From Natranaeroarchaeum sulfidigenes (GTDB lineage: Archaea; Halobacteriota; Halobacteria; Halobacteriales; Natronoarchaeaceae): a DNA stretch of 64,000 nt. Shown piece after piece: positions 26,690 through 34,456 of the stretch (its first letter is position 1; each line of letters starts with the position of its first letter). Location of the stretch: assembly GCF_017094485.1 (NCBI RefSeq), contig NZ_CP064786.1, forward strand, positions 620,001 to 684,000, read 5' to 3'. Below the pieces are notes generated by a model that saw only the letters and a list, made by a program, of their open reading frames with translations, was not told where the DNA came from and did not search any database. Both the position numbers and the translations under genes were made by a program.

Positions 26690-27847
26690 CTACCGGCTTT
26701 GACTGCCTTCGGGGAACCAGACGAGCTCGTGGTCGGCCGTGAGCGTTACGGTGACCGGCGTATCGAGATCCATCGACTCGCTATGGTTGTGCATGCATTC
26801 GATCGTCTCGCCGCTGTCGAGCTCGACCCGATACAGCACCGAGGGACCGAGATACCGTCGATAGGTCACCCGGCCGTCGGCCTCCGCCTCGTCTGCCGGA
26901 TAGGCCAGGATGTCGTCGGGCCTGACGAGCACGTCGATCTCGGTCATGTCGTACTGACTCGCCAGTCCGTGAATCTGTTCGCGATCGATCGACGCAACTG
27001 ACGTATCGACCTTGTCGCCCCGGACGTAGCCCGAAAGGAAACTCGCGTGGCCGAGAAAGCCGGCGACGAAGCGTGATTTCGGCCGCTGGAAGACGGCTTC
27101 GGGCCGACCGACCTGTTCGAGTCGCCCCTCGTGCATCACTGCCACCCGGTCACTGATCGACAGTGCCTCTTCCTGGTCGTGGGTCACGGAAACGGCGGTA
27201 ACACCGGTCTCTTTGAGGATCCGACGGACCTCCTCGCGCATCTCGACGCGCAGATCGACATCGAGGTTCGAGAACGGCTCGTCGAGCAGGAGGATCTCGG
27301 GTTCGGGTGCGAGCGAGCGCGCCAGCGCGATTCGCTGTTGTTGACCGCCCGAGAGCTCCTCGGGACGGGAGTCGCCCTGTCCATCGAGCCCGACGAGATC
27401 GAGCAACTCCGTCACACGCCGCTCCTGTTCGGCGTCGGACAGGTCGTCGATCCCGAAGGCGATGTTCTCGGCGGCGGTCATGTGCGGAAATAGCGCGAAG
27501 TCCTGAAAGACGACGCCGATATCTCTGGCCTCCGGTGTAACGAACGTCCCGTCTCCCGTGGCCACTGGCAGTCCATCGACGCGGATCGCCCCCGAATCCG
27601 GTCGTTCGAGTCCGGCGATGAGCCGGAGCGTTGTCGTCTTTCCGCAGCCTGAGGGGCCAAGCAGGGTTAGCAGTTCGCCCTGTTCGACCGACAAGGAGAG
27701 GTCCTCTACGGCCTGTTCCGCCCCAAACGTCTTCGAGATACGGTCGATCCGCAACAGGGGCTCGTCCGACGTCTGCTGTGATACTCCCTCTCGTCGGCGG
27801 TTCTGTGTCGTCTGCTCCGTCGCGGTGGTAGTTAGTTCAGCTGACAT
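26690..27847 (-). CDS. fbpC: Fe3+ ABC transporter ATP-binding protein (FbpC/AfuC-like)
   Basis: A 385-residue ATPase. The ATPase domain carries Walker A GPSGCGKTTT, Q-loop VVFQDFALFPHM, signature LSGGQQQRIALARSLA, Walker B ILLLDEPFSNLD and the H-loop SVTHDQEEAL. From about residue 275 a TOBE-type beta domain follows (DVLVRPDDILAYPAD to GPSVLYRVELDSGE), typical of ferric-iron and spermidine/putrescine ATPases. It has a polar N-terminal extension of about 30 residues. Its start overlaps the permease gene by 11 nt, and both lie downstream of a DtxR-type operator at 29463-29478. Confidence 0.88.
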   Translation of the reverse strand: MSAELTTTATEQTTQNRRREGVSQQTSDEPLLRIDRISKTFGAEQAVEDLSLSVEQGELLTLLGPSGCGKTTTLRLIAGLERPDSGAIRVDGLPVATGDGTFVTPEARDIGVVFQDFALFPHMTAAENIAFGIDDLSDAEQERRVTELLDLVGLDGQGDSRPEELSGGQQQRIALARSLAPEPEILLLDEPFSNLDVDLRVEMREEVRRILKETGVTAVSVTHDQEEALSISDRVAVMHEGRLEQVGRPEAVFQRPKSRFVAGFLGHASFLSGYVRGDKVDTSVASIDREQIHGLASQYDMTEIDVLVRPDDILAYPADEAEADGRVTYRRYLGPSVLYRVELDSGETIECMHNHSESMDLDTPVTVTLTADHELVWFPEGSQSR

Positions 27848-29426
27848 TGTACTTCTCCTGTCGTAGCAGCACGATCATCGAGAGTCCGGAGATCACGATT
27901 AGGATGAGTGCCGGGATAGCCGCGTAACGGTAGTGGACGCTTTCGTGAGCAGCCCAGATAATCGTCACCAGCGTGTCGAACCCAACCGGCTGGAGCATCA
28001 GTGTCGCCGGGAGCTCCTTCATCGTCGTCAGGAAGACGAGGACGCCGCCCGCGATGACGCCCGGTGCGATCAGCGGGAGCGTAACCCGGCGGAACGTCTC
28101 GACGCGCCCGGCGTTCAGGGTCCGGGCGGCCTCGTCGAGGCGCTCGTCGACCTGCAGGACCGACGTTCTGGTACTCCCGACTGCCTGCGGGAGAAAGCGA
28201 ACGACGTAGGCAAACACGAGCAGCGGGATCGTCCGGTAGACCCACGGCAGGTAGTTCGAGCCGAAAAAGACAAGCGCGAGACCGATCACGATACCGGGAA
28301 CCGCGAAGCCGACGTAGGTCATGCGCTCGAACAGGCGAGCGGACAGTGAATCCGATCGGGCTGCCATATACCCGACCGGGATCGCCAGCGCGCTTGCGAC
28401 CAGAGCCGCCAGCCCGGCGAGTGTAACTGAGTTGACAACGTACTCAAGCTGGAACTCCAGCGACGGAACATCCCCGCCCGCGCCCTGGAAGAACCAGAGT
28501 CCAAAGATTGCCACCGGAACGACAAGGGTCACAAAGCCGATGGCGGCGAACGCGCCCATTGCGGGCCACTGCCACGCGCCGAGTCGGAGCCGTGTGCCGT
28601 CCGCGCCCCCCGCGCTGGCGTCGTCGTCGTGGCCAACGCCAGCCTCGATGGCGATTACGACAGCGGTGACGGCGATCAATTGCAGGGAGAGCAAGGCGGC
28701 GTACTCGACGTTGAACGCGCCGTACTCCCAGTATATCGCACTCGTGAACACCCGTACCTGCATGAACGCGGGGGTCCCGAAGTCCGAGATCGCGTACAGG
28801 GCAACGAGCAGTCCACCGGCGGCGATGGCGGGACGGATCTGTGGGAGGGTGACGCGACGGAACGCCTTGAACCGCCCCGAGTTGAGCGTCCGGGCGGCGT
28901 CGACGAGCGAGGAGTCCATCGAGAGCAGTGCCGCACGCGTCGTGAGGAAGACGTACGGATAGGTGTACAACGTGATGATGAGCGCAGCGCCGTAAAAACC
29001 ATAGACGTCGGGCAACCCGACGCCGAGAAGCGAACTCAGCTCGCCCCGGGGACCGAACGCCGAGACGAACGCAAACGCCCCAATGTAGCTGGGGACCACC
29101 AGCGGCAAGGCGGCGACGATGGTCCAGAACCGGCGGTACGGAAGGTCAGTGCGAACGGTCAGAAACGCGAGGGGGACGCCGATAAGAATCGAGGCGATGG
29201 TCACGACGGCCATTAGCCCGACGCTATTTGTAAAAATCTCGACGGTATCCGACGACAACATCAGGCTAGCCGCTCGCGTAGCCTCGACCTCCGACGCGCG
29301 CAAGAGGAGCCACAGCAGCGGCGAAACGACCAGCGCCGCGATGGCACCGCTCAATAGGAGGAGGCCGACTGACGCGGCATCGGTGTCGTCCGATGCCACC
29401 AGATCACCGAAACGATTGCTACCCAC
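27837..29426 (-). CDS. fbpB: Fe3+ ABC transporter permease, fused two-domain type (FbpB/AfuB-like)
   Basis: A 529-residue membrane protein with about twelve hydrophobic segments in two homologous halves. Each half has an EAA-type loop: LVDAARTLNSGRFKAFRRVTLPQI near residue 180 and LDEAARTLNAGRVETFRRVTLPLI near residue 440. The near-identical loops show an internal duplication, as usual for FbpB. It begins with GTG. It forms the iron channel with FbpC, while FbpA at 29522-30667 delivers ferric iron. The upstream TATA is abutted by an iron-box palindrome. Confidence 0.9.
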   Translation of the reverse strand: MGSNRFGDLVASDDTDAASVGLLLLSGAIAALVVSPLLWLLLRASEVEATRAASLMLSSDTVEIFTNSVGLMAVVTIASILIGVPLAFLTVRTDLPYRRFWTIVAALPLVVPSYIGAFAFVSAFGPRGELSSLLGVGLPDVYGFYGAALIITLYTYPYVFLTTRAALLSMDSSLVDAARTLNSGRFKAFRRVTLPQIRPAIAAGGLLVALYAISDFGTPAFMQVRVFTSAIYWEYGAFNVEYAALLSLQLIAVTAVVIAIEAGVGHDDDASAGGADGTRLRLGAWQWPAMGAFAAIGFVTLVVPVAIFGLWFFQGAGGDVPSLEFQLEYVVNSVTLAGLAALVASALAIPVGYMAARSDSLSARLFERMTYVGFAVPGIVIGLALVFFGSNYLPWVYRTIPLLVFAYVVRFLPQAVGSTRTSVLQVDERLDEAARTLNAGRVETFRRVTLPLIAPGVIAGGVLVFLTTMKELPATLMLQPVGFDTLVTIIWAAHESVHYRYAAIPALILIVISGLSMIVLLRQEKYNVS

Positions 29427-29462: not shown

Positions 29463-29478
29463 TTTAGGCTTTCCTAAA
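29463..29478. promoter_or_regulatory. DtxR/IdeR-type iron-box operator of the permease-ATPase genes
   Basis: A perfect palindrome TTTAGG-N4-CCTAAA. It lies directly upstream of a minus-strand TATA-like ATAAAGTATA (29443-29452) about 27 nt before the fbpB start. DtxR-family repressors (Idr/SirR/TroR in haloarchaea) bind sites of this form when iron is plentiful. Confidence 0.75.
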
Positions 29479-29521: not shown

Positions 29522-30667
29522 TCAGACTGTCATTCCTTCCTCGCGGAGCAAGTCGCTCGCGGCTTCCACGTCGCCAAGCGCGTTCAGGTCGAACGACGGC
29601 GGATTGATCTCGTCAACCGTTGGCAGGTCACCCACGTACTCGACGCCGTCGATCACGGGATACTCGCCGTTGACATCGACGAAGAACTCCTGTCCCTCTG
29701 CGGCGAGGATGTGGCGGGTGAACTCCGCGGCGAGGTTCGGTCTGTCCGAAGCCGAGAGGATTGCCACACCGGAGACGTTGAACAGGCAGCCGGGATCGTC
29801 GCTGGTAAATGCAACGTCAAGCGTGGCATCGGGATCCTCGTTCAGGATGCGTCCTGCGTAGTACTGGTTGCCGAGGCCGATGTCCTGATCGCCGTAGGCG
29901 ACCTCCTCGGCCTGCTGTGACCCGCTTGAATACAGCGTGGCGTTTTGTTGGTTCACCATGTCGCTGACCCATCCCCGGGTTTCGTCCTCGCCTTCCATCT
30001 CGATCATCGCAGTAATAAACGACCGGAAGGTTCCCGAGTTCGGGCGCGTCGAGATGACATCCTGGAACTGTTCGTCTTCGGCGTACGCGAAGATATCCTC
30101 TGGCAGATCCGCTCCGTCGAACTCGTCGGTATCGTACATGATTGCCCGGACGCGCCCGGACGCGCCGGTCCACTCGCCATCGGGGTCACTCCAGTCGTCG
30201 TCGACGGCTCCAGTGATGTCCTCGGGTAGTTCGCGAGCGAGACCGTCCGACTTGAGTGCTGCGAGCGCCCCCGAAGACTGGGTGTAGAAGATGTCCGCAG
30301 GGCTGTTCTCACCCTCCTCACGGAGGCTATTGAGCTGATCTTCGTTTCCGTCCTGGTCGACCTCAACGGTAAAGTCGGGGTACTCGTCCTCGATCATCTC
30401 GAACAGCGGGTCGATCTGATCTCGGGTGCGCCCCGAGTAGATCGTCAACTCTCCTTCGAGGTCACCGAGGTCGTCCCACGATACCGCAGTAGATTCGAGC
30501 GCCGCGGCCTGTGGGCCGTAGTCATCGAACGGATCTCCGGCATCGTCCCCAAGACAACCAGCCACTCCGACTGATCCTGCGATCGCAATGCCTGAGGCCG
30601 CCAGAACGCGACGCCGGGAGTGGTCGATCTCAGTGCGCCCGGACCGATCGGAGCCATCGTGTGCCAT
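29522..30667 (-). CDS. fbpA: Fe3+ ABC transporter substrate-binding lipoprotein (FbpA/AfuA-like)
   Basis: A 381-residue exported protein. The N-terminus holds a Tat motif (SRRRVLAASG) and a lipobox GVAGC near residue 39, so it is a lipid-anchored protein on the outer face of the membrane. The mature part follows the FbpA plan: GELTIYSGRTRDQIDPLFEM, then ADIFYTQSSGALAALKSDGL and YYAGRILNEDPDA. A YY pair, typical of ferric-iron ligands, is present in NQYYAGRI. It is separated from fbpB by 95 nt and has its own promoter with two iron boxes. Confidence 0.88.
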   Translation of the reverse strand: MAHDGSDRSGRTEIDHSRRRVLAASGIAIAGSVGVAGCLGDDAGDPFDDYGPQAAALESTAVSWDDLGDLEGELTIYSGRTRDQIDPLFEMIEDEYPDFTVEVDQDGNEDQLNSLREEGENSPADIFYTQSSGALAALKSDGLARELPEDITGAVDDDWSDPDGEWTGASGRVRAIMYDTDEFDGADLPEDIFAYAEDEQFQDVISTRPNSGTFRSFITAMIEMEGEDETRGWVSDMVNQQNATLYSSGSQQAEEVAYGDQDIGLGNQYYAGRILNEDPDATLDVAFTSDDPGCLFNVSGVAILSASDRPNLAAEFTRHILAAEGQEFFVDVNGEYPVIDGVEYVGDLPTVDEINPPSFDLNALGDVEAASDLLREEGMTV

Positions 30668-30674
30668 ATCTTGA

Positions 30675-30723
30675 TTTAGGCTGCCCTAAACAATATATAT
30701 GTGGCGGTTTAGGCTGGCCGAAA
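30675..30723. promoter_or_regulatory. fbpA promoter flanked by two DtxR-type iron boxes
   Basis: Box 1 is TTTAGG-N4-CCTAAA (30675-30690); box 2 is TTTAGG-N4-CCGAAA (30708-30723), with one mismatch. Their starts are 33 bp apart, about three helical turns. A TATATA core (about 30693-30700) lies between them, 26-30 nt before the fbpA ATG at 30667. Repressor on both boxes would enclose the TATA element. Confidence 0.78.
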
Positions 30724-30895: not shown

Positions 30896-31552
30896 CTACT
30901 CCGCGGGCAGGTCGTCGATCAGTACGACCGCTTCGCCATCGATGATCGTTTCCCCCTCGTCGTCGCTGACGATCGTGCTGAGTCGGTACTGATCGTTGCC
31001 GAGCGCCTCGATGACTTCGACGGTCGCGGTGACGCGATCGCCGATACGGACGGGGCCGCGGAACTCCAGGTCCTGTGAGAGATAGATCGTGAGTCCGGGC
31101 AGGCGCGCGAGGGCGGCGCTGATCAGTCCGGACACCAGCGTACCGTGAGCGATTCGACCGCCAAAGCGGGAGTCTTCTGCGAACTCGTCGTCGATATGTA
31201 GTCGATTGGTGTCGCCGCTAGCGACTGCGAACCGTTTTACATCCTCGTCGTCGACCGGCTTGCTGAAGCTGACACGATCCCCAACAGTGATCGCGTCGGC
31301 CCGCTCGACTGATCGTTCGAAGCTCCAGTCCTCGTCCTCGAACGCCAGCGACGGGATCGATCCCGATCGGAGCTCGTCATCTCCAGTTGGCAGTTCATCC
31401 CCGTTCTCCTCGGAGTGTTCTCCGTTAGTGACCGATGCACCCATCGCAGCGCGGTTCATCGCTGTTGCGCTCTTTACCGCGCTTTCTCCCAACTGCACCC
31501 ACGCGCTTGTGAGATCCGCGAGAGGGCTCGTAGCTCCCGTATCCTCGGACAT
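30896..31552 (-). CDS. phaJ: MaoC-like (R)-specific enoyl-CoA hydratase (PhaJ type)
   Basis: A 218-residue protein. The C-terminal 150 residues form a hot-dog MaoC domain with the active-site motif SGDTNRLHIDDEFA (D and H hydratase residues), then GGRIAHGTLVSGLISA. It hydrates trans-2-enoyl-CoA to (R)-3-hydroxyacyl-CoA, the monomer for PHA synthesis. The first 70 residues are an unusual helical extension (LADLTSAWVQLGESAVKSAT) absent from simple MaoC proteins. It is divergent from the phaR-phaP-phaE-phaC-phaB genes, which supports the PHA role. The ATG at 31552 is supported by a TATA element at 31571-31580. Confidence 0.83.
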   Translation of the reverse strand: MSEDTGATSPLADLTSAWVQLGESAVKSATAMNRAAMGASVTNGEHSEENGDELPTGDDELRSGSIPSLAFEDEDWSFERSVERADAITVGDRVSFSKPVDDEDVKRFAVASGDTNRLHIDDEFAEDSRFGGRIAHGTLVSGLISAALARLPGLTIYLSQDLEFRGPVRIGDRVTATVEVIEALGNDQYRLSTIVSDDEGETIIDGEAVVLIDDLPAE

Positions 31553-31656: not shown

Positions 31657-31710
31657 ACCATACAAAACCATTCAATACCATGTGAAACCATTTTGCGGCA
31701 AGAGTTAAGT
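31657..31710 (+). promoter_or_regulatory. phased ACCAT repeat array and phaR promoter
   Basis: Four copies of ACCAT start at 31657, 31667, 31677 and 31687, each exactly 10 bp apart (one helical turn). A TATA-like TTAAGT (31704-31709) follows, about 28 nt before the ATG at 31735. The array lies between the divergent phaJ-like and phaR genes and is a likely multi-site operator, possibly for the AbrB-type regulator encoded next to it. Confidence 0.65.
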
Positions 31711-31734: not shown

Positions 31735-32046
31735 ATGACAGACGAGACGACCGGGATGGGGTGGCCGCCGGCGATGTTCGCCGAGCAGTTACAGGAAGCG
31801 GGCGAGCAGGCCGTCGAGAGCCAGCAGGCGCTCGCGAGACAGTTCCTCTCCGCCACCAGCGCGGGATCGAGTAGTATGTCCGGCTTTCCGGCGATGACGA
31901 TGGGTACCGCGACGTTCAAAACTCGCGTCCAGAGCGGCGGGCGGATTAGCATTCCGGACGCAGAGCGTGAGGCGCTCAATATCGACGAGGGAGACATCGT
32001 CCAGACCATCGTCATCCCGATCAACACAGGTGATTCCAATGAGTAA
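31735..32046 (+). CDS. phaR: AbrB-type PHA regulator (PhaR-like)
   Basis: A 103-residue protein with a C-terminal SpoVT/AbrB swapped-hairpin domain (FKTRVQSGGRISIPDAEREALNIDEGDIVQTIVI) and a glutamine-rich N-terminal helix (EQLQEAGEQAVESQQALARQF) that could touch PHA granules or mediate tetramer contacts. Haloferax mediterranei PhaR is an AbrB-domain protein that represses the pha operon and senses granules, and the position here matches. The ATG at 31735 is preferred to one at 31726, because the TATA element lies about 28 nt before it. It overlaps the phasin start by 8 nt. Confidence 0.85.
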   Translation: MTDETTGMGWPPAMFAEQLQEAGEQAVESQQALARQFLSATSAGSSSMSGFPAMTMGTATFKTRVQSGGRISIPDAEREALNIDEGDIVQTIVIPINTGDSNE

Positions 32047-32533
32047 CCAGAATCCAATCCAGACAGCCTTCGACTTCCAGCGAACCGTTCTCGAATCGAG
32101 CCAGCGCATGACCAGAAGCACCGTCGACGCCCAGCAGACCGCGATGTCGGCGTTCGTCGACAGTATGGCGACTGTCGAGGAGCTGGGCGAGCAAAACGCC
32201 AGCATGACTCAGGACGCCATCCACAGCTACTTCGACGCCGTCGAGGAGATGACCCCTGAGGGCAGCGAGATGGATTTCACCGAGGCCCGTGAACTCGTCG
32301 ACGAGCAGTTCGATGCCTACGGCGAGATCAGCGACGAGGCGTGGGCGTCGATCCACGAGACTCTCGACGAGGCGAACGCGACATTCGAGGAAGCGAGCAA
32401 CGAGTACGTAGCGGCCGTCGACGATGGCTTCGACGCCTACCTTGATATCCACGAGGAGGTCGAGTCGAGTGCCGTCGAGATGGCAGAAGAGATGGAATCC
32501 ACCGCCGAAGAGATCGACGTCTCAGCGCCGTAA
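32039..32533 (+). CDS. phaP: phasin PhaP (PHA granule structural protein)
   Basis: A 164-residue, highly acidic, all-helical protein with no cysteine. The first helix (NPIQTAFDFQRTVLESSQR) is amphipathic, and the rest (DFTEARELVDEQFDAYGEIS and later repeats of EEVESSAVEMAEEMESTAEE) is coiled-coil-like. This is the layout of haloarchaeal phasins, which coat PHA granules. The gene starts inside the end of phaR (8-nt overlap) and precedes phaE and phaC, so expression with phaR is expected. Confidence 0.82.
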   Translation: MSNQNPIQTAFDFQRTVLESSQRMTRSTVDAQQTAMSAFVDSMATVEELGEQNASMTQDAIHSYFDAVEEMTPEGSEMDFTEARELVDEQFDAYGEISDEAWASIHETLDEANATFEEASNEYVAAVDDGFDAYLDIHEEVESSAVEMAEEMESTAEEIDVSAP

Positions 32534-32577: not shown

Positions 32578-33135
32578 ATGACCGATACATACGACACTGA
32601 CGCAGTACAGAATAGCTGGACCGAGTTCATGCAGCAGATGAACGAGCAGTTCGCCGACGCCTTCGAGGAGAACATCGAGGCACAGGCCGAGTTCGTCGAA
32701 GCCTGGACCGAGACCGTCGATGCAGCAAGCGACGACGAACGAATGAGCGAGGGGATCGAGGGCTACACCAATGCCTATCAGGTGTGGATGGACGCTGCCG
32801 AGGAGATGGTCGAGCGCACCGGCGATGCCGCTGCGGGCGAGGACGTTACCGTCGAGGAGTTCCGCGATATCTGGCTCAACAACGCCAATCAGGCGTTCAA
32901 AGAAGTCATGTCGACATCGGCGTTCGCGGCGATGACGGGTGAGACTGTCGGTGATGCCCTCGAAGTCCAGCAGGTGGCTGACGAGAGCGCCGAGGCGACG
33001 CTCCGCCAACTCAGGATGCCGACCCAGGGCGACGTCGAGGAGATCGGCGAGCGACTCGTCGACCTCGAACGCCGCCAGCACGCTGTCGAACAGAAGATCG
33101 ACCTGGTGCTCGAACACGTTCAGGACGGGGAGTAA
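32578..33135 (+). CDS. phaE: class III PHA synthase subunit PhaE
   Basis: A 185-residue acidic helical protein. It shows the haloarchaeal PhaE arrangement: [21 protein letters not shown], then a middle [13 protein letters not shown] and [22 protein letters not shown], and a C-terminal coiled segment ([24 protein letters not shown]). PhaE is the non-catalytic partner required for class III PhaC activity. It is shorter than bacterial PhaE, as usual for archaea. The phaC ATG follows 7 nt after its stop codon. Confidence 0.87.
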
Positions 33136-33142
33136 CCGACCG

Positions 33143-34456
33143 ATGAGAAACCCCTACACTGCCACGCTGGATCTTCAACGTCAGGCCTGGGAGAACGCCG
33201 CGGATGTCATCAAACGGTCCGCGGAGATGCCCGGCGCGAACGAGACCATCGCCGAGTCGGAGGTCGGCGAGACGCCAAAGGAGATCGTCTACGAGGAGAA
33301 CAAGCTCCAGCTCTACCACTACGAGTCACAGACCGAAGAACAACACGACGTTCCGATTCTGATCGTCTACGCGCTGATCAACCGACCGTATATCCTCGAT
33401 CTGCAGCCCGATCGGTCGGTCGTCCGGACCCTCCTCGAAAACGGGTTCGACGTATACCTGATCGACTGGAACGAGCCATCACAGCTGGACAGTTCGCTTC
33501 GGCTCCACGACTACGTCAACCGCTACATGGACAACTGCGTCGATGTCGTCCGCAAGCGGTCCGATCAGGACAGCATCAACCTGCTGGGCTACTGTATGGG
33601 CGGAACGATGTCGACGATGTACGCCGCACTTCACCCCGAAAAAGTCCGTAACCTCGGCCTGATGGCGGCCGGTCTCTGTTTCGACGAGACCGGCGGTGTG
33701 CTCGAACTCTGGGGGGATGACGAATACTTCGATCCCGAAGATGTCACCGATACGTTCGGGAACGTCCCCGCGGAGTTTCTGGACGTGGGCTTCGCGCTGA
33801 TGGACCCGGTCGAGAACTACGTCACCAAGTACGTCCGCTTCTACGACAACGTCGAGGACGAGGACTTCGTCGGAAATTTCGCACGCATGGAAGAGTGGCT
33901 CGGTGATGGTATCGACGTTGCCGGAGCCACCTTCGAGGAGTTCATCGAGGATATCTATCAGGAAAACAGGCTCTATCGTAACGAACTCGAACTCGGCGGG
34001 GAGCACGTCGATCTCGAAAACATCGATATGCCGGTGCTGAACATCGTCGCGCACTACGACCACCTCATCCCGCCGGCGGCGTCGAAGCCGTTCAACGACG
34101 TCGTCGCCAGCGACGACACGACCGTCATGGAGTTCAAGACTGGACACATCGGCATGTCGGTCTCCTCGCGCTCGCACGCCGATCTCTGGCCGGACGTCTG
34201 TGCGTGGTTCGAGGAACGCTCGCAGGTCGAAGCGCACGCCGACGAGCACGCGGCTGTCGAAGCCGACGACGGATCGTCATCCGTGCAGACCCTCGACGGC
34301 ATTGGTCCGGCCTACGAGGAGCGCCTAGCCGACGCCGGCTACGGAACCGTCGCCGCGCTGGCCGTGGCGGACGCCGAGACCGTCGCCGGGGCGGTCAACC
34401 TCCCGGCAAGCCGTGTCGAGAGCTGGATCGAGCAGGCCCAATCGATCGACGACTGA
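33143..34456 (+). CDS. phaC: class III PHA synthase catalytic subunit PhaC with C-terminal HhH domain
   Basis: A 437-residue synthase. The catalytic cysteine is C151 in the lipase-like box GYCMGGT; D306 (AHYDHLIPP) and H335 (KTGHIGM) complete the triad, close to the positions known for class III PhaC of Allochromatium. It polymerises (R)-3-hydroxyacyl-CoA at the granule surface. Residues 381-437 form an additional helix-hairpin-helix-like domain ([20 protein letters not shown], then [19 protein letters not shown]), joined by an acidic linker. Long C-terminal extensions are known in haloarchaeal PhaC, but the HhH character is notable. Confidence 0.93.

Follow-up and report, generated by a model that had tools for sequence, protein, structure and literature searches.

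The phaRP promoter of Haloferax mediterranei contains four tandem repeats that have been described as a negative cis-element and probable PhaR site (Cai et al., 2015, as summarized in PMC9049629 and PMC7137286). According to the same reviews, PhaR represses phaRP in this species, its AbrB-like domain is needed for the repression, and the phaRP promoter is weaker without PHA. As far as these summaries go, the kind of operator treated here is therefore known in outline from H. mediterranei. In Bacillus subtilis, AbrB has been assigned a bipartite site, TGGNA-N4/5-TGGNA (PMC8552724, PMC11497800, PMC11135676). In Ralstonia eutropha (Cupriavidus necator), repression by PhaR at phaP1 is relieved under PHA-accumulating conditions (PMC12849132).

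A comparable locus is present in Natranaeroarchaeum sulfidigenes, within a stretch of 64,000 nucleotides (contig NZ_CP064786.1, positions 620,001 to 684,000), referred to here as the window. The phaJ gene is divergent from phaR-phaP-phaE-phaC, which together with a reductase gene lie on the plus strand, and an array of half-sites on a 10-bp lattice is located between phaJ and phaR. The features, in window positions, are as follows.

26690-27847, minus strand: ABC transporter ATPase, TTTAGGCnnnCCTAAA repeats upstream
27837-29426, minus strand: ABC transporter permease, TTTAGGCnnnCCTAAA repeats upstream
29522-30667, minus strand: ABC transporter SBP, TTTAGGCnnnCCTAAA repeats upstream
30896-31552, minus strand: phaJ (MaoC-type enoyl-CoA hydratase), divergent, own promoter without the lattice (sequence comparison)
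31657-31661, plus strand: half-site 1, ACCAT (sequence)
31667-31671, plus strand: half-site 2, ACCAT (sequence)
31677-31681, plus strand: half-site 3, ACCAT (sequence)
31687-31691, plus strand: half-site 4, ACCAT (sequence)
31695-31701, plus strand: degenerate fifth lattice point (GCGG, about 31695-31698) overlapping a BRE-like GGCAA (sequence; relatives)
31703-31709, plus strand: TATA-like element of phaR (AGTTAAG; GTTAAG at about 31704-31709), at the position equivalent to CTTAT in relatives
31735-32046, plus strand: phaR, AbrB-like granule-associated repressor, with the conserved start at 31735 (MTD...), not 31726
32039-32533, plus strand: phaP, haloarchaeal phasin (sequence comparison)
32578-33135, plus strand: phaE, class III PHA synthase subunit (sequence comparison)
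33140-34456, plus strand: phaC, class III PHA synthase with a C-terminal HHH domain (sequence comparison)

The ATG at 31735 is favoured as the start of phaR because 15 of 15 aligned homologs open with MT. The C-terminus of PhaR gave 2glw as best PDB match (AbrB-like domain, E 8.5e-8) and matched the AbrB-type model TIGR01439 with an E-value of 2.3e-5, below the cut-off of the model. PhaR gave no Pfam match, and an AlphaFold2 model of the monomer (pLDDT 55) showed no usable AbrB hairpin. By its C-terminal AbrB-like domain, the protein can be placed with the AbrB/SpoVT swapped-hairpin proteins. A PhaR-like AbrB protein with 49% identity is also encoded outside the haloarchaea, in a Nitrososphaeraceae MAG (L019), with no ACCAT array seen upstream of its gene. 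The C-terminal domain of PhaC is a helix-hairpin-helix (HHH_5, E 3e-10, window 34283-34441), and the C-termini of several solo phasins look similar on visual inspection; with a DNA-binding-type domain of this sort, granule proteins could anchor the granules to the nucleoid. The neighbouring TTTAGGCnnnCCTAAA inverted repeats lie at 29463-29478, 30675-30690 and 30708-30723, three sites against 0.16 expected, and look like iron-box (DtxR/Idr-type) operators.

The initial annotation had pointed to four ACCAT words at exact 10-bp spacing, and this is borne out by the starts at 31657, 31667, 31677 and 31687. Between the end of the array and the phaR TATA are 10-15 bp. In the window, three ACCAT-N5-ACCAT pairs were found, all of them inside the array, against 0.03 expected, and no shuffle reached three. 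The search for other phased ACCAT arrays in the same genome, also proposed there, returned none: only two three-copy matches with up to two mismatches were obtained, which overlap and both fall within this array. A pattern scan of this genome with the commonest mixed-orientation triple gave nothing better than two mismatches, and mixed triples with two to three mismatches are near chance (38 matches versus 27 for the reversed control). No second four-copy ACCAT array exists in the 3.04-Mb genome, and chance does not account for this one.

PhaR is present in 163 of 292 genomes of the class and in 52 of 77 genera. Upstream regions of 129 phaR genes were read, of which 107 were kept after removal of near-duplicates. 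When CCAT and ATGG were counted from a shared anchor, the outer C:G pair, the 107 promoters gave 144 anchor pairs exactly 10 bp apart (shuffle mean 0.6, maximum 4), 76 at 20 bp and 23 at 30 bp. Scored with four points on the lattice against 300 shuffles (p<=0.01), 105 of the 107 promoters beat the shuffles. The mean score was 20.9 for period 10 versus 14.2-15.3 for periods 7-9 and 11-13; among periods 7-13, only period 10 was enriched. In Haloferax larsenii (L021), for example, the phaR promoter reads CCCAT/ACCAT/GCCAT/ATGGT. Both the recurrence of the period-10 pattern upstream of orthologous phaR genes and the same-face phasing that had been read from the window find support in these counts.

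Across these promoters the conserved unit is, on sequence grounds, an orientation-free half-site (ACCAT or ATGGT) on a 10-bp lattice. With F for ACCAT and R for ATGGT on the phaR-sense strand, the patterns in the 107 promoters were FFRR (31), FRRR (29), RRRR (14), FFFR (10) and FFFF (5). The window and a genus neighbour (L076) carry the all-forward form, a minority, and the direct ACCAT repeat of the initial annotation, present as described, proves to be one arrangement among several. At most one orientation switch, always inward, was found in 89 of 107 promoters against a random expectation of 31%, a comparison whose p-value is inflated by sequence kinship. The half-site consensus is ACCATYnRAT (ATGGTA on the opposite strand), and the invariance of CC/GG in its logo is partly due to the score-based selection of half-sites. 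Of about 97 promoters with a located TATA, 84 have it 15-16 bp past the final strong half-site. The next lattice point after that half-site is the GG of the BRE (GGnAAnnCTTAT), and in relatives both GG at -7/-6 and AA at -4/-3, counted from the TATA, are conserved.

Exact arrays were also sought, blind to gene content, in the 292 genomes, and 15 distinct places outside phaR were found. Nine of them precede phasin (PhaP) paralogs, eight assigned by blastp to the PhaP of the window (E 4e-20 to 4e-10) and the ninth (G005) by coordinates; three, all from a single genus, have an RGP-like gene on one side and a carboxyltransferase gene on the other, and the remaining three look incidental. All but one of the 15 are in genomes with PhaR (163 with and 129 without; Fisher p=0.002). 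As a test of prediction, phasin regions were selected by protein alone; of 40 such regions, three phaR-adjacent phaP genes (L227, L244, L246) were excluded, and the lattice was present in 24 of the 37 solo phasin promoters, in the same promoter register as at phaR, and missing at 13 of these phasin-like genes. Three of the solo phasin promoters (L250-L252) were judged by eye at corrected coordinates and are of the MTNATTPIEATFEL type. Together with L239 and L241, they have an F-R-R-F-like lattice, with an outward-facing switch that phaR promoters avoid. In the single genus mentioned above (L148, L149, L150), the exact ACCAT/ATGGT array lies near position 1501, between the RGP-like gene and a gene for an acyl-CoA carboxylase carboxyltransferase, and adjoins a TTTAGG..CCTAAA box; a role of this carboxyltransferase in propionyl-CoA, and hence PHBV precursor, metabolism is possible.

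As far as the promoters can be read, the register of the lattice is fixed to the phaR TATA, and the lattice goes with phaR and not with phaJ, in line with the placement directly before the TATA of phaR given in the initial annotation. Whether the gap between phaR and phaJ is as short as 167 bp or as long as 570 bp, the lattice remains beside phaR, and it is kept at ten phaR loci without a detectable neighbouring phaJ (L003, L079, L083, L084, L086, L091, L103, L122, L124, L128). The phaJ-proximal DNA is without lattice, with one pair at 10 bp versus 0.83 expected in 93 segments; these comprise 16.6 kb of real sequence and double as a non-shuffled control. The same annotation had the array couple both divergent units to granule load, a claim left unsupported because the phaJ side lacks the lattice, the gap is variable and the lattice persists without phaJ. 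A PhaR-read array acting as a shared bidirectional switch for phaJ and phaR-phaP is unlikely: its position between the two divergent genes, some 80-115 bp upstream of a putative phaJ TATA, the presence of phaJ on the opposite side in most relatives and the granule association of PhaJ1 itself in H. mediterranei, known from the literature, would suit such a switch, but the register follows phaR only, and arrays persist at solo phasins as well as at loci without phaJ. An effect on phaJ may occur where the two genes are close together, as they are in this window.

The array is very probably the operator of the PHA-granule regulator PhaR, with autorepression relieved by granule titration. The PhaR-like protein had been named as first candidate to bind the array, and the 105 of 107 promoters, the solo phasins and the reviewed work on H. 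mediterranei all argue for this candidate. On the opposite strand the copies of the window read TGGTT, TGGTA, TGGTT and TGGTG, compared with the AbrB consensus TGGNA; across half-sites the fourth letter is T in 82% and the fifth A in 56%, the TGG being partly fixed by selection. Read as TGGT(A)-N5-TGGT(A), the array resembles the AbrB site over a few letters and would fit the AbrB-like domain of PhaR. Half-sites one helical turn apart would allow PhaR dimers or oligomers of the AbrB fold to align cooperatively on one face of the DNA. Because repression is reported, the repeats are four and the half-site is AbrB-like, PhaR is proposed to align up to the BRE, which the last lattice point touches, and to block TFB/TBP. 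Bound PhaR would repress phaR-phaP and, in other species, also solo phasin genes. As PHA granules grow, PhaR would shift to the granule surface and the operator would empty, so that phasin would be made in proportion to granule surface. We infer the reading of this exact half-site by PhaR, the oligomeric mode, the titration in this species and the occlusion of the BRE.

Sites directly upstream of the BRE are typical of haloarchaeal activators too. That the array serves a different factor as upstream activating sequence, be it a growth-phase activator or another protein of the AbrB/MazE type, or is a PspR site, is nevertheless quite unlikely. Potential competing readers exist in the form of 12 further MazE/AbrB-family matches in the same genome, and PspR has been found by ChIP and EMSA to bind the phaR promoter of H. 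mediterranei, but across genera the array follows the distribution of PhaR and phasins, the cis-element reported in H. mediterranei is negative, and the paper on PspR counts it in only 13 haloarchaeal strains, far fewer than there are lattice-bearing phaR promoters. Very improbable is a DNA-shape feature, in which the phasing would come from A/T tracts that curve the DNA intrinsically and would have no specific reader; A/T-rich spacers do recur each 10 bp in the window, but conservation is seen at CC/GG and the flanking A-T, and the spacer letters vary. Orientation flips leave the CC/GG anchor on the lattice, which is more simply explained by a base-specific reader, and the curvature-only reading was rejected for these reasons. 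A chance repeat within an A/T-richer intergenic stretch has only the shortness of the ACCAT word in its favour and is practically inconceivable, with exact four-copy period-10 arrays expected about 7e-7 times in 3.04 Mb (both strands) and the class-wide conservation already refuting it.

With PhaR as the reader, a wider granule-sensing regulon of haloarchaea seems rather likely, in which PhaR would read orientation-free phased TGG half-sites at phaR-phaP and solo phasins by an AbrB-like recognition logic, so that in most haloarchaea with PhaR the production of every phasin would depend on free granule surface. In N. sulfidigenes the regulon may be just this operon because the genome has a single phasin. 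The reading specifies, in precise and testable form, an operator code for the main PHA regulator in haloarchaea, which serve as producers of bioplastic, and it allows new targets, the solo phasins, to be predicted from the DNA sequence alone. The recognition logic of bacterial AbrB may be shared by an archaeal protein of the AbrB fold, and the orientation variants found in nature offer material for studying how a symmetric protein copes with both direct and inverted half-sites along the same lattice. The class-wide lattice, the orientation rule, the fifth point overlapping the BRE, the AbrB-like half-site and the solo-phasin regulon were not found in the literature consulted; Cai et al. (2015), represented here through reviews, may already contain some of them.

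Overall, the locus is closest to phaRP of H. mediterranei as the reviews portray it, sharing the order phaJ/phaR-phaP-phaE-phaC, an AbrB-like PhaR and four tandem repeats. As expected of such a cis-element, the array lies in the promoter of the phaR-phaP operon, comprises four tandem repeats and is conserved at orthologous phaR promoters. Negative autoregulation and a promoter more active with PHA are features of H. mediterranei taken from this reviewed literature, whereas the present analysis adds the class-wide distribution of the lattice, its free orientation, the overlap with the BRE, the targets at solo phasins and the absence of an array at phaJ. In the plasmid collection, the phaRP promoter and PhaR of H. 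mediterranei were not found, and the match there is a different phaC locus. The B. subtilis AbrB site likewise has a TGG core about every 10 bp and a reader of the AbrB fold, here a predicted one. Unlike that site, the lattice has 3-5 half-sites, a fixed promoter register, both orientations and one dedicated pathway, whereas B. subtilis AbrB is a global regulator of loose specificity. The PhaR of R. eutropha at phaP1 is, like the haloarchaeal protein, a granule-linked repressor of a phasin gene with a site in the promoter, but its operator motif is unrelated (the palindrome YTKNTGCRNYGCANMAR) and the phaR and phaP promoters are separate there (PMC12849132).
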